A stretch of 64,000 nucleotides of DNA from Janibacter sp. DB-40. GTDB lineage: Bacteria > Actinomycetota > Actinomycetes > Actinomycetales > Dermatophilaceae. The stretch covers positions 3,286,001-3,350,000 of the forward strand of contig NZ_CP120360.1 of the NCBI RefSeq assembly GCF_029510815.1, given 5' to 3'. A program made the translations under genes and the position numbers. The notes under the pieces were generated by a model, which worked only from the letters and a program-made list of their open reading frames with translations, made no database searches and was not told where the DNA came from. Below are positions 32,670-49,563 of the stretch, piece by piece (positions within the stretch are counted from its first letter, which is position 1; each line of letters opens with the position of its first letter).

Positions 32670-33023
32670 TCAGCGGTCGACCCCGCGCACCCTCGCGAGC
32701 CAGATCGTCGGCGCGGCCGCGCCGAGCAGCGCAGCGGCGAGCTGGGCGAGCCAGTCAGGCGAGGCCATCGAGTTGTAGGGCAGGTACAACAAGCCCAAGA
32801 GGATGCACGTGACGACGGCGCTGACCATCGTGGACGGTGCGAACCACGCACTCGCGGCCCCGACCGCGAGGCCGATCACGACCGCCCCGACGATGAAGTG
32901 GATCCGGATGGCCGTCACGTCGGCACCCGCCCAACCGGCGGTCAGCATGACCGCGGACAGCGCGAGGAATGCGGCGATCGCGGCCGCGACGACCGCGGCG
33001 ATGATCCTTACGGCGCGCTTCAC
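32670..33023 (-). CDS. module A small membrane protein
   Basis: 117 residues with four hydrophobic segments. The middle segment VVIGLAVGAASAWFAPST matches the module C protein (VVIGAASAWVARR) and more loosely module D (GGALAAWSRPED). Last gene of module A, coupled to the lipoprotein gene by ATGA. Function unknown; its repeated place after the lipoprotein suggests a working partnership. Confidence 0.7.
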   Translation of the reverse strand: MKRAVRIIAAVVAAAIAAFLALSAVMLTAGWAGADVTAIRIHFIVGAVVIGLAVGAASAWFAPSTMVSAVVTCILLGLLYLPYNSMASPDWLAQLAAALLGAAAPTIWLARVRGVDR

Positions 33024-33583
33024 GACTGCTCATTCGCATCCGGCACCGGCTCGTCCGAGTGCTGGTACCGCAGGGTGTCCACGACATGGCTGATCAGCGC
33101 CTTGTCCACCTCGGTCCCACCGATGGTCACCGCCACCGACGCCGAGGGCTGGCGCTGCGAGGCGATGATCCACGCCCCTTGCGCCGTCTCGCCACCATCC
33201 TCGTAGGTGAAGGTCTGCAGCAGGGCGGTGTCAGCCCCCTCCACCGTGATGTCCCGACCCTCACCCGGCTGGTACCCGTCCAGTTTCATCGTGGCGGGAA
33301 ACTGGAGTGAGCCGATCGCCCCGGCAGCCGTCCGGGAGTCGTCGAAGGGATCGGCCACCTGGATGCCGGCGCCATCGGTCTCGGCAGCCAGCACCCACTT
33401 CTCGCCGGAGCCCTCCCCCTTCGTCCACTCCTGCGGGTACTCCACCGTGACCCGCTCGCCCTCGAGCTGCTTCCACCCGTCGCTGGGTGCGTCGCTCGAG
33501 CAGGCCGACAGGGCCGTCGTCCCCACGAGGGCCGCCACCGCGATCGCCGCCCCCGTCCGCGGACGATGTCCCGTCCTGGTCAT
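33020..33583 (-). CDS. module A lipoprotein (GWKQLEG family)
   Basis: 187 residues from ATG 33583, RBS AAGGAGAGTC. The signal sequence ends in the lipobox LSAC (Cys near 28). The mature part starts GWKQLEGERVTVEYPQEW and includes VADPFDDSR, EGADTALLQTFTYEDGGETA and QGAWIIASQRQPSASVAVTI. The module C lipoprotein is clearly homologous (GWKQLEGDRLSLEVPEEF, GADSALIQTFTYADGGDTA), and D more distantly. The shape resembles LpqN/DUF1795-type lipoproteins, without proof. Follows the pilin-like gene. Confidence 0.8.
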   Translation of the reverse strand: MTRTGHRPRTGAAIAVAALVGTTALSACSSDAPSDGWKQLEGERVTVEYPQEWTKGEGSGEKWVLAAETDGAGIQVADPFDDSRTAAGAIGSLQFPATMKLDGYQPGEGRDITVEGADTALLQTFTYEDGGETAQGAWIIASQRQPSASVAVTIGGTEVDKALISHVVDTLRYQHSDEPVPDANEQS

Positions 33584-33597
33584 GACTCTCCTTGGTC

Positions 33598-35052
33598 TCA
33601 TGAGATGCAGTCCGAGTAGGGAACCATCGAACGCGCTCCGCCGCTCGGTGCTCCAAGGTACGCGGCATACACCGCCTCCGCCTCACTGGTGTTGGCCGAG
33701 AAGTCGAACCCGAGCTTGACGCCGAGCGCGACCTCAGCCGCGAGGCCGGAGGTGCTGGTCACCCCTTCGCTGGTGACCGCAGACACATTGGCCTGCTCGT
33801 GCATCAGCTGGCTGAAGGGATCCGCCCCGGGATGAGCAGGGTTGACGGCACTCATCGGGATCGCGCCCGGCCACTCGTAACCATCGCCACCGAGCCACTC
33901 CTCGACGACTGCCGCGTCCTGCGCGTACCCGGGAGCCTCCGGGTCCAAGGTGAGCCTGGTTGTCGTCACCGTGGCCGTCGTCTCCTCGTGCGAGGTGAAG
34001 AACGAGCCCTTGGTCCCGGAACCACTCTCCCCGGCGAGGCCGACCCCGCCGTTGATCGCCCCGTCGTTGGTGGACACGACGGCGATCTCGGTGATCTGGC
34101 CCTCGGCGTTCTGGGTCACCGCCATGCTCATCCCCGCCGTATCACCCAATCCCAGGTCCGCCGCCCAGATGTCCGACGAGACATCCGGGTTGATGGACAT
34201 GTCCACGGTGTAGGTCTTCGTGTCGTCCTCCATGGACTCCGTCCCGTGGGTGTCCAGAGTTCGAGTCCACGTGGCGTCCGCATCGATGGACCCGGCGATG
34301 ACCTGCGCATCGAGACTCGGACCGCTGCCGTCCTCGGTGGCCGACACAGAGAGACCGAGCTGCGCATCGAACCCACCGGTCACCCCCATGTCGACCGTCG
34401 TCGAATCCGGCTCGGGGAGCGGCTCCAACGGATCGATGACATCCGCCACCACGGCTCCCCGTGGGTTCCATCTGCGGTTCGCGTCGCGGAAACGGTGCTC
34501 GTCCAACGCCTCCTCGAACTCCTTCGCCTGCTCTTCAGCACCGTCACCCGAGAAGGTCCAGGTGTCGCCGACGCCGAAGGTGACGCCACCCCCGAAGTTG
34601 ACCTCGGCGCCGAGGTCAGTGCCTCCCCCGGCTTCGAAATCGGCACCGACGGACCCCGAAGCCCCGATCGTGCTTCCTCGTGTGGCCGTCAGGGTGATGG
34701 TTCCATCGCTCATGACCGTGCGCATCAGGCCGGCGTCGTCCCCGACGTCGAAGAAGGCAATGGAGACGGTGGAGTTGACCTGCTCGCCCGTCTGTGACAC
34801 CTGGCAGACCGGTGGCGCGAAGTCCTCGTCGGTGGGTTGTCCGGCATCCTCCTCCCCTTCGCCCTCCGACCCACACGAGAGGTCGGTCCGCAGGATCGAG
34901 CCCACCGCATCGCACACGGCGGCTCGGACGTTCGCACCCTGGGGGCTGATCGCGAGGACGATCGCCCCCACGAGAACCGCGGTCACCACGACGACGCCGA
35001 CGTACTCGGCCGAGCTGGCACCGCGCTCCCGGCGACGGGCGCGCTCACTCAT
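33598..35052 (-). CDS. module A large protein with Flp-pilin-type leader
   Basis: 484 residues. The leader SERARRRERG is followed by ASSAEYVGVVVVTAVLVGAI: a class III signal (cleavage after Gly11, Glu and Tyr at +5/+6) just like the Flp pilin. Then come a short Cys-containing segment (AAVCDAVGSIL, DLSCGSEGE) and a beta-rich acidic domain of about 400 residues (TLTATRGSTIGASG, VNFGGGVTFGVGDTWTF, PFSQLMHEQANVSAVTSEGV), ending near a Cys. Homologous to modules C and D along its length. Not a known family to me. Function unknown; probably surface or pilus-associated. Confidence 0.8.
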   Translation of the reverse strand: MSERARRRERGASSAEYVGVVVVTAVLVGAIVLAISPQGANVRAAVCDAVGSILRTDLSCGSEGEGEEDAGQPTDEDFAPPVCQVSQTGEQVNSTVSIAFFDVGDDAGLMRTVMSDGTITLTATRGSTIGASGSVGADFEAGGGTDLGAEVNFGGGVTFGVGDTWTFSGDGAEEQAKEFEEALDEHRFRDANRRWNPRGAVVADVIDPLEPLPEPDSTTVDMGVTGGFDAQLGLSVSATEDGSGPSLDAQVIAGSIDADATWTRTLDTHGTESMEDDTKTYTVDMSINPDVSSDIWAADLGLGDTAGMSMAVTQNAEGQITEIAVVSTNDGAINGGVGLAGESGSGTKGSFFTSHEETTATVTTTRLTLDPEAPGYAQDAAVVEEWLGGDGYEWPGAIPMSAVNPAHPGADPFSQLMHEQANVSAVTSEGVTSTSGLAAEVALGVKLGFDFSANTSEAEAVYAAYLGAPSGGARSMVPYSDCIS

Positions 35053-36134
35053 GGGTACTCCGGCTCCCTGATCTGGTCTTCGACGAGCTCCGCCATCGCG
35101 GCGTGCCCCTGGGCGTTGGGGTGGAAACTGCCGGGGTCGACGAGCGAGAGCCCTGGGCCACCCCAGTTGAGGTCGTTGATCCACGGGTCGTCGGACCCGA
35201 TGCCGTGGCCACGGAAGGCCTCCGTCGGATCGATGAACTCCACCCCGGCCTCACGGGCGGCCTCCCGGAGCATGTCATTGAGCTCACCTGCCTGCTCGTT
35301 CATCCACTCCTGGTCCTCGGCGAAGAGCAGGTTGCTGACGCTGTCCCGGGGCTCCTGCTCGAAGAGCTCCGGGTAACCGACGATGACGACCCGGGCGTTG
35401 CGGGCCTGCTCCTGGATCTCGTCATACGTGTCCACGAGCTCCTCGTGCATGGTGTCCAGGCGCTCGTCGATCCGGTCCGCATGCGTGTCCTGGCACGAGT
35501 CGAGCATGGGGATCCCGCTCTCCCCGTTGATGACGCAATCCTTGACGACATCGGCGAAGCCGAGGTCGTTGCCACCGATCGACATCGTGACGAGCGAGAC
35601 GTCGTCGTCGAGGTCGTCCAGCTGCGGGTTCTCGTGGTCGTTGCTGTCGTTGTCGTCGGTCAGGTCGTCCTGGGTCGCGCCCGAGCACGCGGCGAAGGTG
35701 GACCCCCCTTCGAAGGTGATGCCCGTCCCCTCACGCTGGATGACGTTGGAGTACGCGTTGCCCGAGCGGTGGCACCGGTTGCGCTCGTCGTCACCCCAGT
35801 TGTCCCGGTCCCACTCGTCACCGTGGTCGTAGTCGGTGTCCGGGTCGTAGTCCCCCGCACCCTCACCGGAGGCGTAGCTGTCGCCCAGGGCGACGTACTC
35901 CCCCCACGTGGCCCGCTGCAACGGGGTCGCGGTCGAGCCCTTCGGCGGACACGAGCCCTGGTCGAGGATCCGGCAGACAGCATTCCCCACCGCTGTCTGC
36001 AGCTGCGCCCCGCTGATACCGGCGACGACACCCGCGACGACCATCGCCGCGACGACGATCAGACCCACCCGCTCGAGGGCGGCGGCCCCCTGCTCCGCCG
36101 TCCTCGAGCGGTACCCCCGCGACCGCACGATCAC
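35049..36134 (-). CDS. SGNH/GDSL esterase with Flp-pilin-type leader
   Basis: 361 residues from GTG 36134, overlapping the upstream stop as GTGA. The leader YRSRTAEQG is followed by AAALERVGLIVVAAMVVAGV (class III cleavage after Gly16, Glu at +5), then AVCRILDQGSC as in the pilin-like proteins. The rest is an SGNH hydrolase: GDSYASGEG (Ser86), NRCHRSGNAYSN, SIGGNDLGF (Asn189) and DPGSFHPNAQGH (Asp333/His338). All catalytic blocks are intact, and several Cys could form disulfides as in secreted SEST-like esterases. An enzyme held by a pilin leader is unusual. Confidence 0.88.
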   Translation of the reverse strand: MIVRSRGYRSRTAEQGAAALERVGLIVVAAMVVAGVVAGISGAQLQTAVGNAVCRILDQGSCPPKGSTATPLQRATWGEYVALGDSYASGEGAGDYDPDTDYDHGDEWDRDNWGDDERNRCHRSGNAYSNVIQREGTGITFEGGSTFAACSGATQDDLTDDNDSNDHENPQLDDLDDDVSLVTMSIGGNDLGFADVVKDCVINGESGIPMLDSCQDTHADRIDERLDTMHEELVDTYDEIQEQARNARVVIVGYPELFEQEPRDSVSNLLFAEDQEWMNEQAGELNDMLREAAREAGVEFIDPTEAFRGHGIGSDDPWINDLNWGGPGLSLVDPGSFHPNAQGHAAMAELVEDQIREPEYP

Positions 36135-36823
36135 TCCGTCCGGTCGAAGGCCCCGACGGCGTCCTCGAGGACCTGCGGGTCGGGGTGGCCCTTGAGCGCA
36201 TAGGAGGTGAGCGCGATCAGGGCATGGTCGTCGCTCATGAGGACCATGTCTGTGGTCGGCCCGGCTCCGGTGGTCGCCGTCTGGCGCCACGCCACGGCGT
36301 TGGCCGGCAGTCCCTTGACCTCCACGGGCTCGACGTCGAAGCGCACGGTCGGACTGTCGGCCCTGTTGCCCTTGGTCTCGTACGACGTACACCCGGGAAG
36401 AGATGCCTTCAGGTCGCGGACCACTGCCGCCGGCGTCGTGGCATCGGAGTGGATGCGCACGTGCTGGGCGAGGAAGGGGCCCAGACCCCCCTGCGAGAAC
36501 CGGATGGCACCACCGTCGACCGGCTTCTGCGGCTCGATGTCGACCCCGCACACGAGCTGCTTGAATCCCGGGCCGGGTGGTTCGCTGTCCCGCCACGTCC
36601 CGGGGAGGTCCTTGCTGGCGATGAATCGGTCGGCCACCGGACGGTCGTCCTGGCTGCTGGCGGGTGACGACACCTCTGACGCGGCGGGCGCACTGCCGGC
36701 TTCCTCGGGCGCGGGCTCGTCCCCGCACGCACTCAGGCCGAGCACGAGCGCACCCACCGCCACCAGGGCAACACGTCGTACTCCGGGCACCGCTCGTGCC
36801 CTGCTGGTGGCTGAGAGGCCCAT
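36131..36823 (-). CDS. module A leading lipoprotein
   Basis: 230 residues from ATG 36823, RBS GAAGGAGAG. The signal sequence ends in the lipobox LSAC, then an Ala/Glu/Ser linker and a domain with DRFIASKDLPGTWRDSEPPG, QLVCGVDIEPQKP and WRQTATTGAGPTTDMVLMSD. The paired cysteines may bond. It lies first in the module A operon, behind the boxed promoter. Overall shape is that of PknH-sensor or LpqN-like lipoproteins; I cannot assign it. Confidence 0.7.
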   Translation of the reverse strand: MGLSATSRARAVPGVRRVALVAVGALVLGLSACGDEPAPEEAGSAPAASEVSSPASSQDDRPVADRFIASKDLPGTWRDSEPPGPGFKQLVCGVDIEPQKPVDGGAIRFSQGGLGPFLAQHVRIHSDATTPAAVVRDLKASLPGCTSYETKGNRADSPTVRFDVEPVEVKGLPANAVAWRQTATTGAGPTTDMVLMSDDHALIALTSYALKGHPDPQVLEDAVGAFDRTE

Positions 36824-36873
36824 GTCATCGCTCTCCTTCGATCCCGGGCGACCCCGGTAGTGCGTCCAGATCG

Positions 36874-36952
36874 AAGGTAGAAGGGCACGAACCGCCTGCA
36901 CAGGGCGCTGGGGCCCGGTTGTGGGCCCCGCTCGCGGTGGGACCACGGGCCC
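36874..36952 (-). promoter_or_regulatory. module A promoter with GGGCCC boxes
   Basis: Minus strand -10 TACCTT (36874-36879). Boxes: GGGCCC at 36911, 36923 and 36947, GGTCCC at 36939 and a weak GCGCCC at 36903. Spacings 8, 12, 16, 8; the nearest box starts 29 bases from the -10. Same layout as the flp promoter. The 5' leader would be about 44 bases. Confidence 0.6.
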
Positions 36953-37013
36953 ACGACAGCCCGGGCGAAGGGGGGCGCGCCCCCGTCAGCACCCCTGCGG
37001 GAGGCGGTACTGG

Positions 37014-37265
37014 CTACAGCAGGGCGACGACCAACGCTGCGAGACCGAGCAGGGCCGACAGACCCCCGGCCACGGTCGCCCAGCGCCGTCGGATCAGTCC
37101 GGCAACGGCCAGGACCACCCCCGGGACGGCGAACAACGCCATGCGCTGACCTTGGGCCGACTCCTGGAGTGCAGCCGTGGTCGGCTCGATATAGAACCCC
37201 TTGAGCAGCGCCCAGGCGCAGATGACGAGGTTGAGCACGAGGGCGAGTGCGGGGACCGATCGCAT
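37014..37265 (-). CDS. small membrane protein after the prepilin peptidase
   Basis: 83 residues with two or three hydrophobic segments (VPALALVLNLVICAWALL, ALFAVPGVVLAVAGLI, GGLSALLGLAALVVALL). Start ATG overlaps the peptidase stop by one base (TGATG). Not recognised. It is the last gene of the module B operon. Confidence 0.6.
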   Translation of the reverse strand: MRSVPALALVLNLVICAWALLKGFYIEPTTAALQESAQGQRMALFAVPGVVLAVAGLIRRRWATVAGGLSALLGLAALVVALL

Positions 37266-37948
37266 CAGATCTCCGGGACCAGGTGGCCGAGGGCCGGGGC
37301 GACGAGGACGAGCAGCGTGCCGGCGACGAGGTAGGGGCCGAAGGCCAGGTGGGACTTGCGTCCGGCGCCGGTGAAGACCACGAGGTAGACCGCAGCCACC
37401 GCGGCGAGGAGGAAGGCGACGATGGACCCGAGCAGGACGTGCCCCCAGGACAGGTGGCCCAGGAGCATGCCGAGGCTGGGCGCGAGCTTCGCGTCGCCCA
37501 GGCCCATGCCCGCCCCGCCACCGATGAGCACGAGGATCAGGTAGAACCCGCCGAGCGCCAACCCGGCCAGCAGGGCTCGCACCCAGGCGTCGACGTCGTC
37601 GGCCACGAGGGCTGCACCGAGAAGGCCGACCATCACCCCGGCCACCAGCGGGTAGGTGATCATGTCGGGCAGGCGGAAGACGTCGATGTCGATGGCACCG
37701 AGGACGACGAGGGCGATGGCGGCCACTGACTGGACCGCCACGAGCGGGAGCTGGTCCGGTCGCGCGAGCACCAGGAGCACCGGAAGCAGGGCGCAGGCGG
37801 GGACCACCCAGCCCACCCGTCTGGTCCGCAGCTCGAGCTCGTCCTCGTAGCGGTACGCCTGCGAGCGCAACCACCGGGAGCACCACAGTCCGACCGCACC
37901 TCCGAGGAGTGCCGCGACCCCGATCCCGGGGAGCACGTCGTCGCTCAT
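37265..37948 (-). CDS. A24 prepilin peptidase (TadV/CpaA type)
   Basis: 227 residues, about seven membrane helices. The two catalytic aspartates of the A24 family are in DIDVFRLPDMITYP (near residue 90) and GMGLGDAKLAPSLG (near 155, GxGD). It lacks the N-methylating Cys domain of larger type IV peptidases. It should cleave the class III leaders of Flp, TadE and the pilin-like module proteins at the membrane. ATG 37948 is preferred to 37957 because the ribosome site GAGGGG is then well spaced. It is the only such gene in the window and lies in the module B operon. Confidence 0.92.
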   Translation of the reverse strand: MSDDVLPGIGVAALLGGAVGLWCSRWLRSQAYRYEDELELRTRRVGWVVPACALLPVLLVLARPDQLPLVAVQSVAAIALVVLGAIDIDVFRLPDMITYPLVAGVMVGLLGAALVADDVDAWVRALLAGLALGGFYLILVLIGGGAGMGLGDAKLAPSLGMLLGHLSWGHVLLGSIVAFLLAAVAAVYLVVFTGAGRKSHLAFGPYLVAGTLLVLVAPALGHLVPEI

Positions 37949-37961
37949 CGAGACCATCCCC

Positions 37962-38507
37962 TCATTGTCGGATCGTCCACCCGGCGATCAGGGCCGGGAC
38001 ACCCATGACGAGCCCGAGGACTCCCGCTCCGAGGGCGACGAGTCCGACGGTCGTGGTGGAGCGGCCGAAGGTGGACTGCTCGGACAGTGCCGCGGGCGTC
38101 AGCGTGTCGCCGGGGCAGGTCAAAGTCGCCGGCTCGGACCGCAGCTCGATCTGCGTGAACGGGTGCCACGTGGTCCCCTCGACGGTGATCGGATCCCCGA
38201 GGGCGAAGTCGAAGTTCCCGACCCGGGTCCCGCTCGCGACGTCCCCGTCGTCCTCGATGAGCTCGCAGCCCAGCCTCCGCGGCGAGTCCGTCGCGGGTTC
38301 AGCGGTGTAGACCATCACCGACCCACCGAGGAGCCCGGAGGCCGGGGGGACGGCCGTCTTCGGCCCCTCGGTGACCGTGAGACGGACCGGCTCGTTGCCC
38401 TGTGCGAGGGTCACGCCCCCGACGATGATCGAGGCGACACCTCCGATGACGAGGGATGCGCCGGCGACGAGCAGGACGAGCTTCAGGACCGACGAGAACC
38501 GTGTCAT
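37962..38507 (-). CDS. module B two-helix membrane protein
   Basis: 181 residues. An N-terminal helix (VLLVAGASLVIGGVASIIVG), an exported middle domain with two cysteines (LGCELIEDD, ATLTCPGDT), and a C-terminal helix (GLVALGAGVLGLVMGVPALI). Layout like the unknown two-helix gene at 31.6 kb. It lies just before the prepilin peptidase gene, 13 bases away, in the module B operon. Function unknown. Confidence 0.65.
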   Translation of the reverse strand: MTRFSSVLKLVLLVAGASLVIGGVASIIVGGVTLAQGNEPVRLTVTEGPKTAVPPASGLLGGSVMVYTAEPATDSPRRLGCELIEDDGDVASGTRVGNFDFALGDPITVEGTTWHPFTQIELRSEPATLTCPGDTLTPAALSEQSTFGRSTTTVGLVALGAGVLGLVMGVPALIAGWTIRQ

Positions 38508-38526
38508 GGAGGTGCGCGTGACCCGA

Positions 38527-38985
38527 CTACCGCAGTCCGGAGGTGTCGATGCGCGCGTCGGTGATCTCCGGCAGGGACCGGACCACGACCACCACCACGA
38601 CCATCCACACCAAGGCGTCCACCGCCCATGCGAGGGCGCCCTCCCACCCGAAGGCGGTGGCGATCAGCGCCTTGCCGCTCCACGCGGCAGGCAGGAGGAC
38701 GTACGCGACCAGCCCGGCGACGAGCCACAGGGTTCGCGGTCCGCCGCGCGACCACCGGTACCCGGTGGTGAGCACCAGGATCACCGACCCGAGGACGAGG
38801 ACGGTGCGCACCACTGCACCGACGGTGACGCTCAGGGCCATGATGCCGATGATCGACCCGACGATGCCGAAGATGGTGGCGGCCACCACCAGGGCCACGC
38901 AGGTCAGGACGGCGCCGACCACCCGGTGGGTCGTCCAGGTGCGTGTCGTCGGCGACGGATGGAGATCGTGGACCACGCGCGTCAC
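38527..38985 (-). CDS. module B small membrane protein
   Basis: 152 residues with about four hydrophobic segments. GTG 38985 overlaps the lipoprotein stop as GTGA. It takes the same place as the small membrane proteins of modules A, C and D, but the sequence has diverged (TLWLVAGLVAYVLLPAAWSG). Unknown function. Confidence 0.65.
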   Translation of the reverse strand: MTRVVHDLHPSPTTRTWTTHRVVGAVLTCVALVVAATIFGIVGSIIGIMALSVTVGAVVRTVLVLGSVILVLTTGYRWSRGGPRTLWLVAGLVAYVLLPAAWSGKALIATAFGWEGALAWAVDALVWMVVVVVVVRSLPEITDARIDTSGLR

Positions 38986-39608
38986 GCCCCCTTGAAGGTC
39001 GACAGGATCGTCGGCAGCTCGCTCTGCTCGAAGGTCTCGGCGTCACCGAGGGCGACGACGTTGAGGATGAGGTCGGGGTTGATCTGGACCATCAGCTGCC
39101 ACGTCTCCCGGCGCTGGCCATCTGCGCCGCCGACAGGGTTCGTCCACTGGACGAGGACAGCCTTCTCGGCGCCCGGCCAGGTGACCTCGGAGCGCGCCAC
39201 CTCCTCCTCGTTGTTGACCGACTGCATCTCCTCCAGCACGAAGGACTGCTGGATGACGTCCTGCTTCGGCTTCACGTCCCGCAGGACCGCCACCCGGTGC
39301 AGCGAGGTGTCCTCGCCCTCGGCACGTGGCGCGTCGAAGACGTAGGCCTTGGTGCCGTTGGCGGCGGTGGTGATGTCCTCCTCGAAGGAGCCGGGGACCC
39401 CGATGGTGAAGTCCGGCCCCTCGACGGTGCGCCACTGCGAGGAGATCGCGGTCGGGGTCACCGGCGGTGTCGGTGTCCCGGTGGGCTGCATCTGCGACTG
39501 CGAGGGGTTCACGTTCTCCTCCTCCGGCTCGTCGGAGGACGAGCACGCAGCCATGGTCACCACGAGGGCCGTGGTCACGGCCACGAGACAGCGGTGGTGG
39601 CCGGACAT
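38982..39608 (-). CDS. module B lipoprotein
   Basis: 208 residues from ATG 39608, overlapping the pilin-like stop by one base. The signal sequence ends in the lipobox MAAC, then a Glu/Ser/Pro linker. The domain contains SQWRTVEGPDFTIGVPGSFE, EKAVLVQWTNPVGG and QLMVQINPDLILNVVALGD. The pattern (Trp-Arg-x-x-Glu-Gly, then a beta-rich fold) parallels the A and C lipoproteins at low identity. Placed right after the pilin-like gene, as in A and C. Confidence 0.75.
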   Translation of the reverse strand: MSGHHRCLVAVTTALVVTMAACSSSDEPEEENVNPSQSQMQPTGTPTPPVTPTAISSQWRTVEGPDFTIGVPGSFEEDITTAANGTKAYVFDAPRAEGEDTSLHRVAVLRDVKPKQDVIQQSFVLEEMQSVNNEEEVARSEVTWPGAEKAVLVQWTNPVGGADGQRRETWQLMVQINPDLILNVVALGDAETFEQSELPTILSTFKGA

Positions 39609-41017
39609 CAGCCACCTCCTGCAGCGCTGGCACCAGTGCAACTCGTCCATTCGGACATCTGCGATCCGTCCCAGTATTGCGCATCGGTCAGGTCGATGGT
39701 CTGGGTGGACACATCCACCGCACCTGCCAGCGCGATGGGCCCGGCCTTGCCACCGCTGTTGCCCGCCAACGGAGTCGAGCTGGCCATGTCGTAGCCCTGC
39801 TGGGTCAGGTTGCCGGTCTGTCGGACCCGGTTGAAGTAGTTCAGGTCGGCGGGGACCGTCGCCGGCAGCGCGGCCGCTGCGGTGACGCCACCGACGGACT
39901 TGACTCCCTGGCTGGCGAGGAAGGACCAGCCGGCGACCTGGTTGTCCTCGGAATCCATGGGCAGCGAGGTCTGGAAGACCGTGGACCGCCCGGCCGAGGT
40001 GTCGATGTACGTGCCCTCGTACTCCCCGGTGAAGGCTGCGGCCGCCACGCCGTTCCCCTCACCGGAGGCAGTGACCGTGGCATCGACGGAGCTCACCTGA
40101 CCATCGGGATCCACCGTGACTGCTGTCACCATCTCCATGGAGCCGTTGATCGCACCGCCCGTGAAGTCGATGCCCTCCGTGTCCACCCCGAGAGTCTGCA
40201 GCCCGGCCTCCCCACTGACCTCGGACGACAGGTAGAAGGTCTTCGAGCCATCCTTGGACTCCCGGTATCCGAGGGCCTGGGCGGTACTCACCCCGGCGTT
40301 GGCCTTCCCGAGACTAGCCGCCTGGGCCGACGCGTTGACCGAGAACCCGCCTTCGTAGAACGTCTCGTCCGCTTCGGGCAGGGGCTTGGTCAGCCCGGTC
40401 CCGTCCGTCACCTTGTCGGTCAGCCACCGCACGGGCCCGGACTCGGCCACCAGCTCGTCCTTGGCGACGTCGGCGATGTGGGCCTCCACCACCTCGCGCA
40501 ACTCGGCCTCGTCCTCGGCGTGGTAGACCTCACCCTCGGTGATGGACAGGCCGGCTCCCACGTCGGCCGACGCCTGGTTGCCGACCGTGCGGTCGGCGAC
40601 GGTCAGCGACGTGCCGCCCCCCACGCCGAGTTCGACGCCGGCGCCCTCGCCCTTACTGAAGGTCAGCCGGTAGGTCCCGTCGCTGAGCTGCTCGACCTGG
40701 AACTGCCGGCCGTTCTCCAGGGTGACCACGGAGATGGAGACCTGGCCGTGGACGTTGCCGGAGGACCCGGTCACGGTGCAGGGATCGGTCGGCTCGGGTC
40801 GCTTCGCGGTGTCCTCACCACCACCGGACCCGCACGAGCCCTGACCGAGGTTGAGGATGGTGCACACGGCCTGGCGAGCGCTCTCCGCGACCGGGGTGCG
40901 CTGGGTGAGCACGACGACGAGGGCACCCACGAGCATCGCGGAGACGACGATGATGCCCACCCGTTCGAGGCTGACCGCACCTCGCTCATGGCGGTACCGC
41001 GTCCACTCCCGGCTCAT
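39608..41017 (-). CDS. module B large protein with Flp-pilin-type leader
   Basis: 469 residues from ATG 41017, RBS AGGGGGATGG. The leader ends YRHERG and continues AVSLERVGIIVVSAMLVGAL (class III cleavage after Gly13, Glu at +5). AVCTILNLGQGSC follows, matching the SGNH esterase (AVCRILDQGSC). The large exported domain has GGGTSLTVADRTVG, EGNGVAAAAFTGEYEGTYID and Gly/Ser-rich beta repeats, and ends near a Cys. It is a divergent relative of the A and C proteins. First gene of the module B operon, behind a boxed promoter. Confidence 0.78.
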   Translation of the reverse strand: MSREWTRYRHERGAVSLERVGIIVVSAMLVGALVVVLTQRTPVAESARQAVCTILNLGQGSCGSGGGEDTAKRPEPTDPCTVTGSSGNVHGQVSISVVTLENGRQFQVEQLSDGTYRLTFSKGEGAGVELGVGGGTSLTVADRTVGNQASADVGAGLSITEGEVYHAEDEAELREVVEAHIADVAKDELVAESGPVRWLTDKVTDGTGLTKPLPEADETFYEGGFSVNASAQAASLGKANAGVSTAQALGYRESKDGSKTFYLSSEVSGEAGLQTLGVDTEGIDFTGGAINGSMEMVTAVTVDPDGQVSSVDATVTASGEGNGVAAAAFTGEYEGTYIDTSAGRSTVFQTSLPMDSEDNQVAGWSFLASQGVKSVGGVTAAAALPATVPADLNYFNRVRQTGNLTQQGYDMASSTPLAGNSGGKAGPIALAGAVDVSTQTIDLTDAQYWDGSQMSEWTSCTGASAAGGG

Positions 41018-41076
41018 CCATCCCCCTGCTGGTCATGACCGCTACCGGGATCTCCGGCAGAACTGGCGCGCCCCCA

Positions 41077-41131: not shown

Positions 41132-41158
41132 AAGGACGGGATCCGACGCGTGGACCCG

Positions 41159-41164
41159 TAACCT
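41159..41164 (+). promoter_or_regulatory. -10 element of the biotinyl carrier gene, probably leaderless
   Basis: TAACCT ends seven bases before ATG 41172. No Shine-Dalgarno sequence is present. Confidence 0.4.
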
Positions 41165-41171
41165 GTGTGCC

Positions 41172-41390: not shown

Positions 41391-41423
41391 CCACCCGCCG
41401 GGCGAAGGGGGCCGGTTGCCCGG

Positions 41424-42476: not shown

Positions 42477-42489
42477 CGTCACTCCTTCG

Positions 42490-43266: not shown

Positions 43267-43739
43267 GGGTCCAGGTGGAGCGAGTCGATGATGCGGTCGA
43301 TGACGGCGCCGTCGGCCTCGCGCCGCGACCCCGCGAAGGAGCCGGTCACCTGGACGACGTCGAGCACGTCCTGGCGCTGCTGCGTGGCGAACCAGTGCGT
43401 CTGCGCCACCGTGCCCGCCTGCGGGTCGACGAAGGAGACCTCGGCCCCCACGGCGGACCGATCGTCCAGCTCCCGGGTGCGCGGCCCGTCGACCTCCCCG
43501 CGCTGCCGCTGACCGGCGTACTCCCCGAGCTCGGCCATGATCTCGTCCGTGCCGAAGGGCGCCAGGCGCTGGTAGTGCCGCACCACGAGGTTGGCGAGGA
43601 AGTGGTCGGTCCCCTGCGCGTCGTCACGCAGGGCGACGAGGGTGTCCGGCGCCCACACCTGGATCCAGCCATCGGGCATCTCGAGGTGGAGCCGAGGCGG
43701 CCCGGGCACGACCGGGCTCGGGTAGGTCACGGTGGGCAC
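43263..43739 (-). CDS. DUF1795/LpqN-like cytoplasmic protein, unknown
   Basis: 158 residues from GTG 43739, RBS AGGAGAG. No signal peptide. One compact alpha/beta domain: RLHLEMPDGWIQVWAPDTLV, FLANLVVRHYQRLAP, THWFATQQRQDVLDVVQVTG. The pattern recalls the single-domain LpqN-like fold of the module lipoproteins but without export signals. First gene of the operon with PP2C and FHA. Role unknown; the neighbours suggest a link to phospho-signalling. Confidence 0.65.
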   Translation of the reverse strand: MPTVTYPSPVVPGPPRLHLEMPDGWIQVWAPDTLVALRDDAQGTDHFLANLVVRHYQRLAPFGTDEIMAELGEYAGQRQRGEVDGPRTRELDDRSAVGAEVSFVDPQAGTVAQTHWFATQQRQDVLDVVQVTGSFAGSRREADGAVIDRIIDSLHLDP

Positions 43740-43822
43740 AGTTGCTCTCCTGGCTGACGAAGGGGGGGTCCCCGGGTCTGTCTGCCCCCAGCCTGCCACT
43801 TGGCGGCGTCGGGGTGGACGAC

Positions 43823-45292
43823 TCAGCCCCGCTCGGCCCACCACGCGCGCAGTCGATCGGTCGCGGCGTCCTTGCCGATGGGGCCCTCGTCGAGGCGGAC
43901 CTGCAGGAGGTAGCGGTAGGCCTGCCCGATCTCGGGGCCGGGCGGGATCCCGAGGACCGCGCCGATCTCGTTGCCGTCGAGCTCGGGTCGCACGGCGTCG
44001 AGCTCCTCCTGCTCCAGCAGGCGCTCGATCCGCTCCTCCAGGTCGTCGTAGGCGCGGGCCAGACGGGCGGCCTTTCGCTGGTTGCGCGTGGTGCAGTCCG
44101 CCCGGGTCAGCCGGTGCAGCCGCTGCAGGAGGGGGCCCGCGTCGGTGACGTAGCGCCGCACGGCCGAGTCGGTCCACTGGCCGTCGCGGTACCCGTGGAA
44201 GCGCAGGTGAAGCTCGACCAGACGGGCGACTTGCTTGGTCGTGTCCTTGTCGAAGCGCAGCGCCTTCATCCGCTTGGCGGTCAGCTTCGCACCGACGACA
44301 TCGTGGTGGTGGAAGGAGACCCCGCCGCCGGGCTCGAAGCGCCGGGTCCGTGGCTTCCCCACGTCGTGGAGCAGGGCGGCCAGTCGCAGCACGAGGTCCG
44401 GGCCGGGCACCGGGTGCTCGTCCTCCCGATCTGGGCCCGGGTCCGCAGCGCCTTCCAGGTCGATCGCCTGCTGCAGCACCGTCAGCGAGTGCTCGTAGAC
44501 GTCCTTGTGCCGGTGGTGTTCGTCGATCTCCAGACGCAGTGCGGGCAGCTCGGGGAGCATGTGGTCGGCCAGCCCGGTCTCGACGAGCAGGCGCAGCCCG
44601 GCGACCGGGTCCGCACCGAGCACGAGCTTGACCAGCTCGTCCCGGATCCGCTCCGCGGAGACGATGTCCAGGGTCGCGGCGGCCTCGGTCATGGCTGCGG
44701 TCACCTCGGGGGCAGGAACGAGCCCGAGCTGGGAGACGAATCGCGCCGCCCGCATCATCCGCAGCGGGTCATCGGTGAAGGAGACCTCGGGCGTGGACGG
44801 CGTGCGCAACCGCCCGGCCGCGAGGTCGAGCAGGCCCCCGTGCGGGTCGACGAGCTCGAGGTCGGGCAGGCGCAGCGCCATCGCGTTGACGGTGAAGTCG
44901 CGCCGGACGAGGTCGTCCTCGAGGTTGTCGCCGAAGGCGACGACCGGCTTGCGGGTTTCCCCATCGTACGCGTCGGCGCGGTAGGTGGTGACCTCGACGA
45001 CCATGTCGCCCCGGCGGGCGCCGATCGTGCCGAACTCCCGACCCATGTCCCAGGTGGCATCGCCCCATGCGGCGAGGATCCGCTCGCTCTCCTCCGGTGC
45101 CGCCGACGTGGTGAAGTCGAGGTCCCCGCTCGTGCGGGAGAGGAAGGCGTCACGGACCGGGCCACCGACGAGGGCCAGCTCGTGTCCCCCCTTCGCAAAT
45201 GCCGTGCCGAGCTCGGTCAGCAGCGGGATCACCGGGGCCAGCTGAGCCACCGCGGCGCGCAGGACCTCGGGGGGAAGAGCAGGGGTGGACAT
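43823..45292 (-). CDS. pcnB: CCA tRNA nucleotidyltransferase (class II, HD domain)
   Basis: 489 residues. N-terminal nucleotidyltransferase head with ALVGGPVRDAFLSRTSGDLD (GxGxxR-like loop and the DxD metal pair near 41-60), RRDFTVNAMALRL near 140, and SFTDDPLRMMRAARFVSQLG (motif D). A neck and body follow, with an HD domain (LRLAALLHDVGKPRTRR, GVSFHHHDVVGAKL). It adds or repairs the CCA end of tRNAs; the HD part is phosphohydrolytic. Conserved near NUDIX and murJ in actinobacteria, but here separated from NUDIX by modules C and D. Confidence 0.93.
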   Translation of the reverse strand: MSTPALPPEVLRAAVAQLAPVIPLLTELGTAFAKGGHELALVGGPVRDAFLSRTSGDLDFTTSAAPEESERILAAWGDATWDMGREFGTIGARRGDMVVEVTTYRADAYDGETRKPVVAFGDNLEDDLVRRDFTVNAMALRLPDLELVDPHGGLLDLAAGRLRTPSTPEVSFTDDPLRMMRAARFVSQLGLVPAPEVTAAMTEAAATLDIVSAERIRDELVKLVLGADPVAGLRLLVETGLADHMLPELPALRLEIDEHHRHKDVYEHSLTVLQQAIDLEGAADPGPDREDEHPVPGPDLVLRLAALLHDVGKPRTRRFEPGGGVSFHHHDVVGAKLTAKRMKALRFDKDTTKQVARLVELHLRFHGYRDGQWTDSAVRRYVTDAGPLLQRLHRLTRADCTTRNQRKAARLARAYDDLEERIERLLEQEELDAVRPELDGNEIGAVLGIPPGPEIGQAYRYLLQVRLDEGPIGKDAATDRLRAWWAERG

Positions 45293-45300
45293 GGGGACCT

Positions 45301-45306
45301 AGGCTA
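45301..45306 (-). promoter_or_regulatory. -10 element of pcnB, probably leaderless
   Basis: TAGCCT on the minus strand ends eight bases before ATG 45292, with no ribosome site in between. Confidence 0.35.
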
Positions 45307-45344
45307 CGCGGATCCGGGGTGCCGCCCCGCACCCGCCGGGTGGG

Positions 45345-45734
45345 CTACCGCAGTCGTGCGACCGGGTCGCGACGTGCCCGACGACGGACGACGGGGGCGA
45401 GCGCCGTGACCGCCGCGTGCACGGCAGCGAGCACGACCGCGACGACGACCCACCCGAGGACGATCCGCAGCAGGTAGCCGGAGGGGACGCTCTCGACCAT
45501 CCACAGGCCGACGGCGACCACCGTGGCGACCGCCGCACCCGCCGCCGTCACCAGCCGCTCGGGCAGCTCGTCCTCGGGACGCGACCACGCCGCGAGCGCG
45601 CCGCCCACGAGACCAGCGGGCAGTGCCGAGACGAGTGGAAGGACGAGGAAGAGGCGCTGCACGAGGATCATCGTCACGGCGCTGAGGACGGCCGCGACGA
45701 GGACCGTGCCGACCCGGCCGCGCAGGCGGCTCAT
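45345..45734 (-). CDS. module D small membrane protein
   Basis: 129 residues, four hydrophobic segments (VGTVLVAAVLSAVTMILVQ, ALPAGLVGGALAAW, LVTAAGAAVATVVAVGLWMV, VVVAVVLAAVHAAVTAL). ATG 45734 overlaps the lipoprotein stop by one base. Same position and layout as the A and C proteins, with a shared GGALAAW/GAASAW core. Intact even though the large module D gene is broken. Confidence 0.65.
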   Translation of the reverse strand: MSRLRGRVGTVLVAAVLSAVTMILVQRLFLVLPLVSALPAGLVGGALAAWSRPEDELPERLVTAAGAAVATVVAVGLWMVESVPSGYLLRIVLGWVVVAVVLAAVHAAVTALAPVVRRRARRDPVARLR

Positions 45735-46261
45735 CAGGGCTCCCCACCCTGGGTCCTGGTGAACCGCAGGCTGTCGATGATCGACTGCACGACGTCACTC
45801 TCGAGGGACCCTCCCGTGAGGGCGATCGCGGCGGTGGACGGGTGCGGCCACTGTCCTGCGATGACCCAGGCGCCCTCCCTCCGGGCGCCCTCCTCCGTGT
45901 AGGTGAAGTCGGCCCGCATGGACGTGTCGGCGCCCTCGACCTCGACGTCGGGCTGGTGCACTCCACCACTCCGGTAGCCGGGCAGCTCCATCGTCGCCGG
46001 CAGGTCCAGCCGGCTGTACGCCGCCGACGCGGTCGGGTCCTCGCTGAAGGTCCCCGAGATCTGCAGCTCGAGGCCGTCGCCGACGAACCTGCGGTCCCAC
46101 GTCCCGCGGGCGTCCTGCTCGGTCCACCCGGCGGGGACGGTGACGGTGAGGTGCCCGGCCGTCACCTCCCGGGCGCCGCCGCCGGCGTCGTCCGACCCGG
46201 AACACCCGGCCACCGCGAGCACGAGTCCCGCCACCATCACGTCACGACGTCGCGGCGTCAT
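45734..46261 (-). CDS. module D lipoprotein
   Basis: 175 residues from ATG 46261, RBS GAGAGGACC. The signal sequence ends in the lipobox VAGC near residue 20. The domain (HLTVTVPAGWTEQDARGTWD, VEVEGADTSMRADFTYTEEG, EGAWVIAGQWPHPSTAAIAL) aligns with the A and C lipoproteins around EGAD..FTY and the GAW-I pattern. No frame damage, so it may still work despite the decay of its large partner. Confidence 0.72.
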   Translation of the reverse strand: MTPRRRDVMVAGLVLAVAGCSGSDDAGGGAREVTAGHLTVTVPAGWTEQDARGTWDRRFVGDGLELQISGTFSEDPTASAAYSRLDLPATMELPGYRSGGVHQPDVEVEGADTSMRADFTYTEEGARREGAWVIAGQWPHPSTAAIALTGGSLESDVVQSIIDSLRFTRTQGGEP

Positions 46262-46284
46262 CGTCGGTCCTCTCCCCACGCGCA

Positions 46285-47130
46285 TCACCCTACGCACTCC
46301 GTGTAGTCGAGCACCGGCCGAGTCCCGTCCGACCGCGGGGCGCCCAGGAGGCTCGCCTCGGTGATCGTGCTCTCCTCGGATGCCATCGTGAAGTCGGCCC
46401 CCAGCGCCATCCCGAGCTTGATGTTGAAGCCGAACTGGGTCACGTCGCCGACCTTGTCGTAGGCCATGGAGGTGCTCGTCGCCCGGTCGAAGAGCAGCTG
46501 TCCGAAGGGGTCGTCCGGGTCTGCCTGTGACGCGTCCAAGGCACTCATCGGCAGGGCGCCCGGCCACTCGTGGTTGCCGGTACCACCCAGCCAGTCGGTG
46601 ACGATGCCCTGCTGCTCGGCATCCTCCGGGTCCACCGCCAGGGTGATCTCGTTGACGACCACGTCCGGTCGCCCCCAGCCCGTGGGTGGTCATCTCCACC
46701 TCGGTCATCGAACGCGTCCTGCCCGTCGCCGAGATCCCCAGCTCCGCCTGGACGTCACCGGTGACCCTGACCCCGGTGAAGCTCGTCGAGGGAACCGGCG
46801 GCGGATCGGCTCCCAGCAGTGGCCTGGGCATGCACGTGCCCATCGCACACGCCGGGTGGGTCATCGCCCACTGGTCGTAGAGGTAGTCGTCCAGCTGCTC
46901 CCGGAACTGCTCTGCCTGGTCCGCGTCCTCGAAGGTCCACGTGCTGCCAGAGTCGAACTCGACCCCGCCGCCGAAGTCGATCCTCGCCCCTGCCTGCCCG
47001 GTCCCCCAGGAGGCGTCCGCGCCAAAGCCGCCCGTGGCACCCAGGCTGCCGCCGTCGGTCGCCGTCATCGTGACCGTCCGTCGCTGCGGTGGCGACGAGG
47101 CCGGCGTGCGGTCGTCCTGACGAGCACGGT
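46285..47130 (-). pseudogene. decayed module D pilin-like gene
   Basis: Remnant of a module A/C-type large protein. Recognisable parts: TATDGGSLGATGG and RIDFGGGVEFDSGSTWTFED (about 46920-47068), then in another frame VVVNEITLAVDPEDAEQQG, NHEWPGALPMSALDASQ and DPFGQLLFDRATSTS (46285-46670), ending LDYTECVG. The frame changes near 46668 at a run of five G. A second break lies near 47075, where one base is missing within SDG-TVTMTA. The leader, membrane helix and Cys segment are gone, as is the boxed promoter. Confidence 0.75.
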
Positions 47131-47188
47131 TCCGACTGAGCGGGTACCCGCTGATCAGGACGGTGTCCGACGTCGGCGACTCGAAGGG

Positions 47189-47530
47189 TCAGGCCTCGTG
47201 CGGAGTCCTCAGCCTGAGTACCAGCGCAATCGCCACGCCCGTTGCCACGAATGTTGCGAGCACCCGGGGAGCGACATGGATCAGGTTGTCCGGGATGTCG
47301 GCCCAGTAGGACAGCAGCACCACGACGACAGCGACGACCGACGCCGTCAAAGCCCGGCGTGCGACCCAGGCACTCGCCGCACCGATCACCACTCCCACCA
47401 GGATGTAACCGACGAAGAACTGGGTTCCCAGCGAGGACGGGTCATCGATCCACAACGTGGTCGCCACCACGAGGACCAGCGTGAGCCCTCCCGCGACGAT
47501 CGCCGTCGCCAACGCCAGAACGGCCCTCAC
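47189..47530 (-). CDS. module C small membrane protein
   Basis: 113 residues from GTG 47530 (GTGA overlap with the lipoprotein stop). Four hydrophobic segments; FFVGYILVGVVIGAASAWVA matches module A. Unknown function. Confidence 0.7.
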   Translation of the reverse strand: MRAVLALATAIVAGGLTLVLVVATTLWIDDPSSLGTQFFVGYILVGVVIGAASAWVARRALTASVVAVVVVLLSYWADIPDNLIHVAPRVLATFVATGVAIALVLRLRTPHEA

Positions 47531-48093
47531 GAGGCGTCGGCATCCAGCGGCTTGCCGTCCTGGTCCACCCGTTCCTCCGAGTGTTCGTAGACGAGAGAGT
47601 CCTTGACGTGACTGATCAGCTCGGTGTCCGCCCCGGTGCCAGCGATGGCGACGGCGACCGTGGTCGCTGGTTGCGTCTGCCCGACGATGATCCAAGCCCC
47701 CTTCGCCGTGTCCCCGCCATCGGCGTAGGTGAAGGTCTGGATCAACGCTGAGTCGGCGCCATCGACCTCGATGTCCCGCACCTCGCCGGGCTCCCAGTCG
47801 TCCAGGCCCAGGGTCGAGGCCAGATGCATGCGGCCCAGGGCGGACGAGATGATCCGTGAGTTGTCGAAGGGGTCGGCCACTTGCACGCTGACATCATCCC
47901 CACGCACGGCTGTCGTCCACCTCTCTCCGGAGCCCTCGTCCTCCGTGAACTCCTCGGGCACCTCCAGGCTCAACCGATCACCCTCGAGCTGTTTCCACCC
48001 CTCAGTCGGAGCGTCGGAGCAGGCAGACGCCATCCCCACGCTGATCAGGGCCGCAGCGACGGCCGCAGCGGATCGGACTCGGTCTGAGCGCAT
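47527..48093 (-). CDS. module C lipoprotein (GWKQLEG family)
   Basis: 188 residues from ATG 48093, RBS GAGGAGCC. The signal sequence ends in the lipobox ASAC near residue 26; the mature part starts SDAPTEGWKQLEGDRLSLEV and continues QVADPFDNSR, DGADSALIQTFTYADGGDTA and KGAWIIVGQTQPATTVAVAI. Roughly half the residues match the module A lipoprotein by eye, making this the best conserved pair among the modules. Envelope role unknown. Confidence 0.8.
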   Translation of the reverse strand: MRSDRVRSAAAVAAALISVGMASACSDAPTEGWKQLEGDRLSLEVPEEFTEDEGSGERWTTAVRGDDVSVQVADPFDNSRIISSALGRMHLASTLGLDDWEPGEVRDIEVDGADSALIQTFTYADGGDTAKGAWIIVGQTQPATTVAVAIAGTGADTELISHVKDSLVYEHSEERVDQDGKPLDADAS

Positions 48094-48107
48094 TTCTGGC
48101 TCCTCGT

Positions 48108-49563
48108 TCACGGTAGGCAATTGGTGTCGCGAACCATCTCACGCGTACCCCCAGACGGCGCCCCAAGGTACCCGGCGTAGACGGCCTCCGAGTCGCTCGA
48201 CGATGAGGAGAAGTCGAACCCAAGCTTGACCCCGAACTTCACCTCGGCCGCCAGGCCCTTGGTGTCGGTCACCCCTTCACGCGTTATGGCCGAGACCGCC
48301 GCGCGCTCGTGCATCAGCTGGCTGAACGGATCGGACCCGCGCTGTGCCGGATTGACCGCCCCCATCGGCATCACGCCGGCCCACTCGTACCCGCTGCCGT
48401 CACCGCCGAGCCAGCCTTCGACCACCGCCATGTCCTCCTGGTACCCGGGTGCGTCCGGGTCGAGAGTGAGCTTGGTCTCCGTCACGGTCGCCGTCGTGGA
48501 CTCGCTCGAGGCGAAGACGGACCCCGACCCCGAGTTGGAGTCGTCATCGATGCCGTCCTTGCCGCCGACATCGACACTGTTCCCATCGACGACGGCGCCC
48601 TCGTTCGTCGTGACGATGGCGATATCGGTGACCCGTCCCCGGGCGTCCTCGGTGATGGCCAGGCTCATGCCGTGGGTGTCGCCCAGTCCGAAGTCCTCGG
48701 CCCAGATGTCCGAGCCGAGTTCTGGAGTGATCGACATGTCCACGGTGTAGGTCCGGCTGTCGTCCTCGGTCGTCTCCGTCCCGTTCGTGCTCGTCGTCTG
48801 GATCCAGTGCGCCTCGGGGTCCACGGACCCGGCGATGGCGTTCAGCTGCACGTTGGGTCCCGACCCGTCCGCGTTCCCGGTGGCCTGGAAGCCCACCTGC
48901 CCACTGACGTCGGCGGTGACACCCATGTCGCGGGACACCGAGTCCGGCGGTGGTAGTGGGTCGAGCGGGTCGATGGCGTCGGCGATGTTGAGGCCGGTAC
49001 GGGACGGACCGCGGTGGTGCTCTCGGGTCCTGTGCTCCTGGAGCAGCTCTTGGAACTCGTCCGCCGACTCCGCGTCCGGGAAGGTCCAGGTGTCGCCGGC
49101 AGCAAAGGAGTAGCCCCCACCGAAGTCGATGGACGCACCGAGCTCCAGTCCACCCCCGGTCCGGAGCTCCGCACCCGCACCGGACGAGACCCCCAACTGG
49201 CTTCCATCGGTCGCCGTGAGACTCACGCTTCCGTCACTCATCGTCTGGCGCGCCAGACCCGCGTTCTCGCCGAAGTCGACGATGCCCACGGAGACGACCG
49301 AGCTGATCTGGCTGCCGGACTGGGTCACGGTGCAAGGCCCCGGCTGGTAGTCCACGTCCCTGGGCGGGCCCGCCTCATCTCCCGCGCCACCGCCGGAACA
49401 CCCGAGTTCGGTTTGCAGGACCTGCCCCACCGCACGGCAGGTGGCGGCACGCACATCCGCCCCGGCGGGGCTGATCGCCAGGACGATCGCGGCCACGACG
49501 ATCATGCCGACGTACTCGACGCCAGACGCACCGCGCTCGGTGTTGTGGGCGTGCCCCCCCCAT
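48108..49563 (-). pseudogene. module C pilin-like gene, out of frame at a C8/G8 tract (possibly phase-variable)
   Basis: The body (48108-49505 and beyond) encodes about 480 residues close to the module A protein: LTATDGSQLGVSSGAG, ASIDFGGGYSFAAGDTWTF, DPFSQLMHERAAVSAITREG, ending near a Cys. The reading frame extends upstream through HNTERG/ASGVEYVGMIVVAA, a class III signal, but has no start codon there. The only well-placed start, ATG 49563 with RBS GAAAGGATCC, is one base out of frame. A run of eight C (49554-49561; G on the coding strand) follows the ATG; losing one base restores MGGHAHNTERG. So it is either switched off, phase-variable, or a sequencing error. Confidence 0.75.

Follow-up and report, generated by a model that had tools for sequence, protein, structure and literature searches.

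Positions 3286001-3350000 of the complete Janibacter sp. DB-40 genome (contig NZ_CP120360.1; 3,351,260 bases) form a 64,000-nucleotide stretch, here called the window, in which the genes of a Tad (type IVc) pilus are accompanied by several large genes whose products start like Flp-type pilins and continue into domains of no known family. What do these large proteins do, and why do lipoprotein genes sit beside them? An earlier, sequence-only reading had proposed a secreted or pilus-tip system with a lipoprotein partner. The core of that proposal, large Flp-leader proteins tied to Tad and accompanied by a lipoprotein, is supported through linkage to Tad genes and recurrence in Nocardioides and Cellulomonas; a link to polymorphic-toxin domains and a predicted beta barrel, neither of which that reading saw, shift the likely function from a general pilus tip to envelope-acting effectors with immunity-like partners. 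We hypothesize, giving it an even chance, that large proteins A, B and C and an SGNH hydrolase are modular Flp pilins that deliver envelope-acting cargos, and that a lipoprotein and a small transmembrane (TM) protein protect the producer. The features behind this hypothesis that the sequence itself shows are the leader with its Cys pair, the Tad linkage, the paired lipoprotein genes, the fusion of the same N-terminal module (N-module) to polymorphic-toxin domains elsewhere, and partners whose compartment follows the cargo.

Gene sets in the window

The genes concerned are the following, from high to low coordinates.

48108..49505, minus strand: large protein C, 465 residues from the first in-frame ATG; the leader continues in the same frame to about 49568, with no start codon
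47527..48093, minus strand: lipoprotein C
47189..47530, minus strand: small TM protein C
46285..47068, minus strand: large protein D, decayed; two pieces in different frames, no leader
45734..46261, minus strand: lipoprotein D, open
45345..45734, minus strand: small TM protein D, open
39608..41017, minus strand: large protein B, 469 residues, architecture as A
38982..39650, minus strand: lipoprotein B, true start possibly further in
38527..38985, minus strand: TM protein B
37962..38507, minus strand: second TM protein of the B set, with an extracytoplasmic part
36131..36790, minus strand: lipoprotein S, 219 residues, GTG start at 36790; precedes the SGNH gene
35049..36134, minus strand: Flp-leader SGNH hydrolase (PF13472, 6.2e-20; PF00657, 6.2e-12); nearest solved chain 4hyq_A, phospholipase A1, 5.3e-25
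33598..35052, minus strand: large protein A, 484 residues; class III Flp leader, TM helix, Cys pair, predicted 12-strand beta-barrel domain
33020..33601, minus strand: lipoprotein A, proposed immunity protein or partner
32670..33023, minus strand: small TM protein A

The C set (large protein, lipoprotein, small TM protein) is followed by the D remnant with its lipoprotein and small TM protein, by genes that by eye seem unrelated, and by the B set (large protein, lipoprotein, TM protein, second TM protein); below it come an A24 peptidase gene, a small TM gene, and the run lipoS-SGNH-A-lipoA-tmA. Every junction of that run (lipoS/SGNH, SGNH/A, A/lipoA, lipoA/tmA) is a 4-nucleotide overlap, as are lipoB/tmB and lipoC/tmC. 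The sequence-only reading had described a four-copy module with shared order and overlaps, which proves too strong: the A and B sets are intact, but C has no in-frame start and D is decayed. By its reading frames, the locus holds two barrel-type modules that are intact, a third whose start is out of frame, a remnant, and an enzyme-type module, the last being the leader-bearing SGNH hydrolase (35049-36134) with its own lipoprotein (36131-36790), which had been missed.

The open reading frames (ORFs) of A and B are intact, and each product has a strict class III leader (Gly at -1, Glu at +5), a Cys pair early on and a large domain that matches nothing in Pfam; the leader claimed earlier for all the large proteins thus holds for these two, but that of C lacks a start and D has none. 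A, B, C, the SGNH protein and the local Flp-type pilin have similar leaders, all with this Gly and Glu. The class III signal and hydrophobic helix that mark a modular type IV pilin are present in A, B and the SGNH protein; a pilin globular module was sought between helix and cargo, and only a short Cys-paired segment is found there.

The large proteins are homologous (A-C, 56% identity over 468 residues; A-B, 27% over 430). Searched with A at E values up to 10, the whole genome gave seven matches (A, C, the two D pieces, B, the Flp pilin and the SGNH leader), those to large proteins being confined to this locus. Lipoproteins A and C are clear homologues, as first proposed (56% identity), and D is related to them (A-D, 33%), but lipoprotein B only weakly (at best 22%, E 0.006, with C); TM protein B gave no match when compared with the TM proteins of A, C and D.

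Recurrence beside Tad genes

The window was said to hold a full Tad machine and an A24 peptidase, and profile and Pfam matches agree, with TadA ATPase, TadB/TadC, RcpC, TadZ, Flp pilin and prepilin peptidase all present. The Tad locus, at 21.7-30.7 kb, runs through TadG-like, Flp-type pilin, response regulator, histidine kinase, TadC, TadB, TadA, TadE-like, TadZ-type ATPase and RcpC genes.

37265..37957, minus strand: A24 prepilin peptidase (PF01478, 2e-8)
29930..30661, minus strand: RcpC/CpaB
28242..29933, minus strand: TadZ-type ATPase with a C-terminal TadE/F-like segment
27898..28245, minus strand: TadE-like pseudopilin, slightly below the Pfam cut-off
26546..27901, minus strand: TadA ATPase (T2SSE)
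24721..26549, minus strand: TadC and TadB (T2SSF)
22504..22818, minus strand: Flp-type pilin, leader as in A, B, C and SGNH, without the Cys pair
21688..22476, minus strand: TadG-like protein (PF13400), its gene separate from the large proteins

Protein searches with A and with B (about 8000 candidates scored in each) revealed at least 12 relatives of A and at least 30 of B, none with a precomputed Pfam domain; the closest named relative of B among the candidates scored is a Janibacter alittae protein (86% identity). A joint alignment of 33 sequences shows four invariant cysteines (C47, C60, C83 and C482 in A numbering), and an order-wide search with it matched 28 of the 396 genomes, spread over 16 of 109 genera. 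Leaving out G072, G121 and G135, which have leader-only matches such as Flp pilins give, 25 genomes carry the large domain; RcpC is present in 24 of these versus 111 of the 396 overall (Fisher p 1.5e-13, ignoring phylogeny), and in 26 of 28 when the leader-only genomes are kept. In 23 of the 25 the large gene and RcpC share a contig at a distance of 2.0-20.9 kb, the exceptions being G030 (88% complete, no RcpC) and G179 (different contigs). Had the large proteins occurred mostly in genomes without Tad genes, the pilus proposal would have fallen; the opposite was found.

Neighbourhoods of 20 kb were examined in 20 of the 27 genomes besides the window's own, and 16 contain core Tad genes (A, B, C, Z or RcpC), with none seen in L040, L044, L053 and L059. 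A named collection yielded four loci, three from Nocardioides and one from Cellulomonas, all of them beside Tad genes; a lipoB relative is downstream of the B-type large gene in all four, a relative of the second TM protein (37962-38507) lies near it in two, both Nocardioides (L060, L062), and the lipoS-SGNH pair, with the lipoS relative preceding the SGNH fusion, is present in all three Nocardioides loci. In Cellulomonas humilata, a B-type set precedes an A-type large protein and a D-type lipoprotein. Chance leaders on standard enzymes, considered as an explanation, were ruled out: leader-SGNH fusions (beside the same lipoprotein in Nocardioides) and leader-barrel fusions recur in other genera, and the module is matched at up to 9e-16 per genome in a genus outside the set from which its profile was built.

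The N-module carries toxin domains elsewhere

A profile of the N-module (leader, TM helix, Cys pair) was built from 32 proteins, comprising 29 of 53 rows plus A, B and SGNH of the window. Left out were near relatives (P0002, P0006, P0014, P0019, P0025, P0034, P0040, P0044, L040_9258, L050_9264, L057_7467, L060_9845, L061_5761, L061_9986, L062_7462 and L062_9836), other genes as judged by eye or from the neighbourhood survey (L045_2815, TadB; L054_2527, kinase-like; L056_19176 and L063_1, TadZ/F; L059_2731, A24; L051_7149), and unusual leader ORFs (L053_10605, with wide Cys spacing, and L053_11401); P0041 was absent from the rows. The early Cys pair noted at the outset in the large proteins occurs in all 32 chosen proteins.

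Of 396 genomes of the phylum searched with this profile, 44 match, in many cases through plain Flp-sized frames; the window's genome has five matches, with no nuclease-type fusion among them. Twenty stretches around long fusions were inspected. The barrel domain is present in eight fusions (L097, L101, L102, L106_9544, L108, L110, L112 and L113), all matched by the A3 profile with E values no higher than 4e-27. Nine others were scanned, and contain RHS with DUF6531, calpain (two), a DUF6782 metallopeptidase, Abhydrolase_8, Tox-REase-5, PT-HINT with a CdiA-CT RNase, PT-HINT, and no family (L098); L104 (RHS-like by eye), L105, L107 and L111 stood outside the domain scan. RcpC is present in 10 of the 11 genomes of these fusions, the exception being G609. 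At L094:4487-8434, an RHS-repeat protein with the Flp N-module adjoins RcpC, TadZ, TadE and TadA genes and overlaps a TM gene.

In a deeper sample of 150 genomes of one large genus, 123 have an N-module match, plain pilins counted, and two genomes have nine and twelve matches, some of them short frames. From 40 regions at the top of the list, requiring an open coding-like frame, a full module and at least 230 residues from the module on, 34 yielded 41 fusions (none from L114, L121, L122, L130, L144 and L148). Nine have the barrel domain. A scan of 30 of the remaining 32 (all except L150 and L153) showed 14 with PT-HINT, of which one also has Ntox21 and another Tox-REase-5; 4 further fusions have Tox-REase-5, 1 a deaminase, 2 ADPrib_exo_Tox and 4 Abhydrolase_8, and 5 match no family (L116, L124, L136, L137 and L146). 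Known toxin domains are thus found in many relatives that share the N-module. At L133, L134 and L151, three module fusions lie side by side in each genome (HINT, deaminase, Ntox21, Tox-REase-5, barrel), at most 30 kb from RcpC.

On plasmids, a search with the L101 barrel protein gave no match, and one with the L118 HINT protein gave 120 records, 112 of them Streptomyces, in which the 12 matches listed cover residue 161 onward, outside the N-module.

Partner type follows cargo type

By a simple lipobox detector, a lipoprotein gene lies directly downstream of 20 of 39 large genes versus 11 of 407 other genes of at least 150 residues in the same stretches; the detector undercounts, since L040 16543-18009 and L042 9792-11285 have lipoD-type genes downstream that were not counted. 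The kind of partner follows the cargo. The 21 large-genus fusions with HINT, nuclease, deaminase or ADP-ribosyltransferase domains have a cytoplasmic partner in 15 cases, one with a signal or single TM helix in 2, a lipoprotein in 0 and none detected in 4; the 13 hydrolase or barrel fusions have a lipoprotein in 6, a signal or TM partner in 1 and none detected in 6 (Fisher test on detected partners, paralogues included, p 5e-5). Seven unassigned fusions have cytoplasmic partners in 4 cases, a lipoprotein in 1 (L153) and none in 2. In the phylum set, the two calpain fusions and those with the metallopeptidase and the hydrolase each overlap a lipoprotein gene, and the L094 RHS fusion overlaps a TM gene; the fusions of L098, Tox-REase-5 and L109 (PT-HINT) have cytoplasmic neighbours, and the L106 RNase fusion has none within reach. 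The window's SGNH cargo (phospholipase A1-like) also pairs with a lipoprotein, the lipoprotein gene coming first. That partner compartment tracks cargo agrees with effector and immunity pairs, in which the protector sits where the effector acts.

The main rival is that these are adhesive or sensory pilus tips, whose large beta domains serve as exchangeable binding modules and whose lipoprotein is an assembly factor or docking partner; we regard this as unlikely, if the strongest of the alternatives. Barrel-type genes do adjoin Tad genes in many genomes (including L101), and two described systems lend it weight. Passages of PMC12075869 describe the Kil Tad pili of Myxococcus xanthus, with four exchangeable, paralogous KilLMN tip sets: like the window, Kil combines a Tad-type pilus with several paralogous large pilin-like proteins per genome and a large extra domain of unknown kind, which in Kil has no known structural relative; Kil is also linked to contact killing. 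By description the two differ: in Kil, the TadG-like KilN joins KilL and KilM in a heterotrimer, whereas the window's leaders are Flp-type, with a Cys-paired segment and with lipoprotein and small TM neighbours. CpaL of Caulobacter, in passages of PMC12607857, likewise fuses a pilin-like N-terminus to a large domain and is proposed, by prediction, as a Tad pilus tip; its cargo is instead a von Willebrand factor A (vWA) domain with MIDAS, and those passages name no lipoprotein partner. Against adhesive tips, the same N-module bears nuclease, ADP-ribosyltransferase and HINT domains, and a partner type that follows cargo type is not predicted for an assembly factor.

The predicted barrel

Structure prediction gives the large domain of A as a closed antiparallel beta barrel of 12 strands. 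The nearest solved folds to this model, by VIA, are autotransporter translocator barrels and FapF. A Foldseek search with the A model was set aside: it placed FadL at 6e-7, but with TM-scores near 0.14 and with soluble barrel enzymes among the rows, so that the barrel comparison rests on VIA. With the B model, Foldseek had no match at or below E 0.001. Neither Pfam (A, B, C) nor NCBIfam (A, B) has a family that matches these proteins above its cut-off, in keeping with the earlier reading, which recognised none, and PDB sequences searched with the A family profile gave only a nanobody (E 0.19). The autotransporter beta domains (EspP, Hbp, BrkA and NalP) differ from the window domain, with 8-12% identity to it, and it has conserved cysteines near both ends. 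Hosts of this group are not known to have an outer membrane, and an outer-membrane-type beta barrel in a monoderm would be striking in itself.

Given these nearest folds, the barrel might be a translocator tip, a pore set by the pilus in the target membrane through which other fused effectors pass; toxin fusions are sometimes far from the Tad locus in the same genome, as this would allow. We think it improbable, the least probable of the alternatives, since several barrel proteins, each accompanied by a lipoprotein of its own, are encoded in the window's genome, and none of its five module matches is a nuclease-type fusion.

Proposed mechanism

The gene pattern suggests how the large proteins of the effector hypothesis may be processed, loaded onto a pilus, toxic to others and countered by immunity. 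The N-module (class III leader, TM helix, short Cys-paired segment) would hand a folded cargo to the Tad machine: the protein would insert in the membrane with its leader inside, the A24 peptidase (37265-37957) would cut the leader, and TadA, TadB and TadC would load the protein on the Flp pilus or at its tip. On contact, the cargos may act on neighbours' envelopes, through the phospholipase-like SGNH enzyme and through membrane-type beta barrels as pore formers; the lipoprotein and small TM protein on the producer's membrane would protect it, or hold the cargo until export. More tentatively, and somewhat short of an even chance, the same may hold across the Actinomycetota: Tad/Flp pili would deliver polymorphic antibacterial effectors, with the Cys-paired N-module as trafficking domain, nucleases, ADP-ribosyltransferases, hydrolases and outer-membrane-type pore barrels as cargos, and lipoproteins as immunity proteins.

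If true, this would provide a pilus-based contact-killing route for Gram-positive actinobacteria, account for the large unannotated genes with lipoprotein partners in actinobacterial Tad loci, and make the leader and Cys pair a sequence tag for listing many effectors at once. It would also join the Tad pili of Myxococcus predation with toxin-domain proteins of soil actinobacteria whose export route is unclear.

Several observations weigh against the effector hypothesis. As to the barrel, soluble beta-barrel enzymes (Fsa2) appear among the Foldseek rows, the two faces differ in hydropathy by at least 2 units in only 4 of the 12 strands (less in the others), and conservation shows no difference between strand faces (p 0.42); with so few amphipathic strands and no contrast in face conservation, membrane insertion is not established. 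The window offers no known C-terminal toxin domain either, as the barrel proteins match none in Pfam (A, B, C) or above cut-off in NCBIfam (A, B) and the SGNH protein is an enzyme fold; the C-terminal part of the barrel proteins is conserved, unlike the variable ends of classic polymorphic toxins. The simple lipobox detector found no downstream lipoprotein for 19 of 39 large genes, one of its 20 matches (L061 5761-7131) is the lipoS of the next SGNH gene, and lipoS comes before its SGNH gene, not after. The slice of leader ORF L053_11401 lacks a second Cys, G609 carries a barrel fusion with no RcpC match, and paralogues and shared ancestry inflate all counts. In the large genus, RcpC occurs in 40 of 40 genomes tested (20 with fusions, 20 without a module match); Tad co-presence was rejected as evidence there because RcpC is in every one of them.

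Distance to the Tad genes in that genus bears on a further alternative. Among the matches listed, a set that includes two rows with a partial module, 27 of 70 long fusions lie within 30 kb of RcpC (in 16 of 20 genomes), and the other 43 lie farther away or on another contig. The latter also speak for membrane-anchored surface proteins that never enter the pilus, in which the leader is a retained TM anchor and Tad linkage reflects shared regulation. Such anchoring seems rather improbable in view of the class III site, which has the strict Gly(-1)/Glu(+5) pattern also seen in the local Flp pilin, and of the A24 gene, which lies inside the cluster and directly adjoins the large gene in L049, L050 and L051.

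Relation to modular pilins and polymorphic toxins

Modular type IV pilins such as PilB of Streptococcus sanguinis, as described in parts of PMC8179133, share the class III signal and a pilin part with a grafted functional module; they have a pilin globular module before the cargo, whereas the window proteins have a minimal Flp-type N-module and a barrel, phospholipase-like or toxin-like cargo. The likeness to polymorphic toxins lies in the N-module relatives, most of them with a partner gene next to them, which carry PT-HINT, Tox-REase-5, Ntox21, CdiA-CT RNase, deaminase, ADP-ribosyltransferase or RHS domains; the difference is that the trafficking module here is Flp-pilin-like. The words 'pilus', 'pilin', 'Flp' and 'TadE' are absent from the first 300,000 characters of PMC3482391, on polymorphic toxins, and the texts of PMC12691689 and PMC13018210 are without pilin, Tad or pilus; one phrase in PMC12605009 lists Flp pilins among domains found with ARC toxins. 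A literature search by title and start of abstract found no description of Flp-leader effectors in Actinobacteria, which does not show absence from print.

Damaged copies and minor observations

The leader of C (49520-49563 region) is in the same frame as the protein body but lacks a start codon there; the ATG at 49563 upstream is in another frame and is followed by a run of eight G, and from the first in-frame ATG the N-terminus falls inside the TM helix. The out-of-frame start could be a switch, decay or a sequencing error. Intact copies exist, since in the near relative P0009 the leader lies inside the open frame (with a TM helix five residues longer). D is a decayed copy, in two pieces (46285-46662 and about 46685-47068) in different frames, with the leader and middle part missing and its lipoprotein and small TM gene open. 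A dead large gene with open partners fits orphan immunity genes, and simple decay of one copy explains it equally well.

Three consecutive leader-bearing ORFs (528, 239 and 326 residues) lie at L053:8796-12381, the two shorter ones having the second Cys wide or missing. The TM proteins at 32189-32602 and 37962-38507 have related extracytoplasmic parts (26% identity). The ORF at 28242-29933 joins response-regulator-like and ParA-like parts to a TadE/F-like pseudopilin segment, and several relatives match both parts too. The window holds no tRNA that would point to a tRNA-linked island. Elsewhere in the genome, at about 2.85-2.87 Mb, are two additional RcpC genes and two Flp_Fap pilins (G000:C1:2853675-2866840; L001, L002), with no large leader proteins nearby; the Flp_Fap Pfam model finds these two pilins and none at the window's locus. 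Two genes, at 10986-11594 and 19940-21061, appear by eye to encode OmpA-like C-terminal domains, and each has a lipoprotein-like gene close by; the host is expected to be without an outer membrane.

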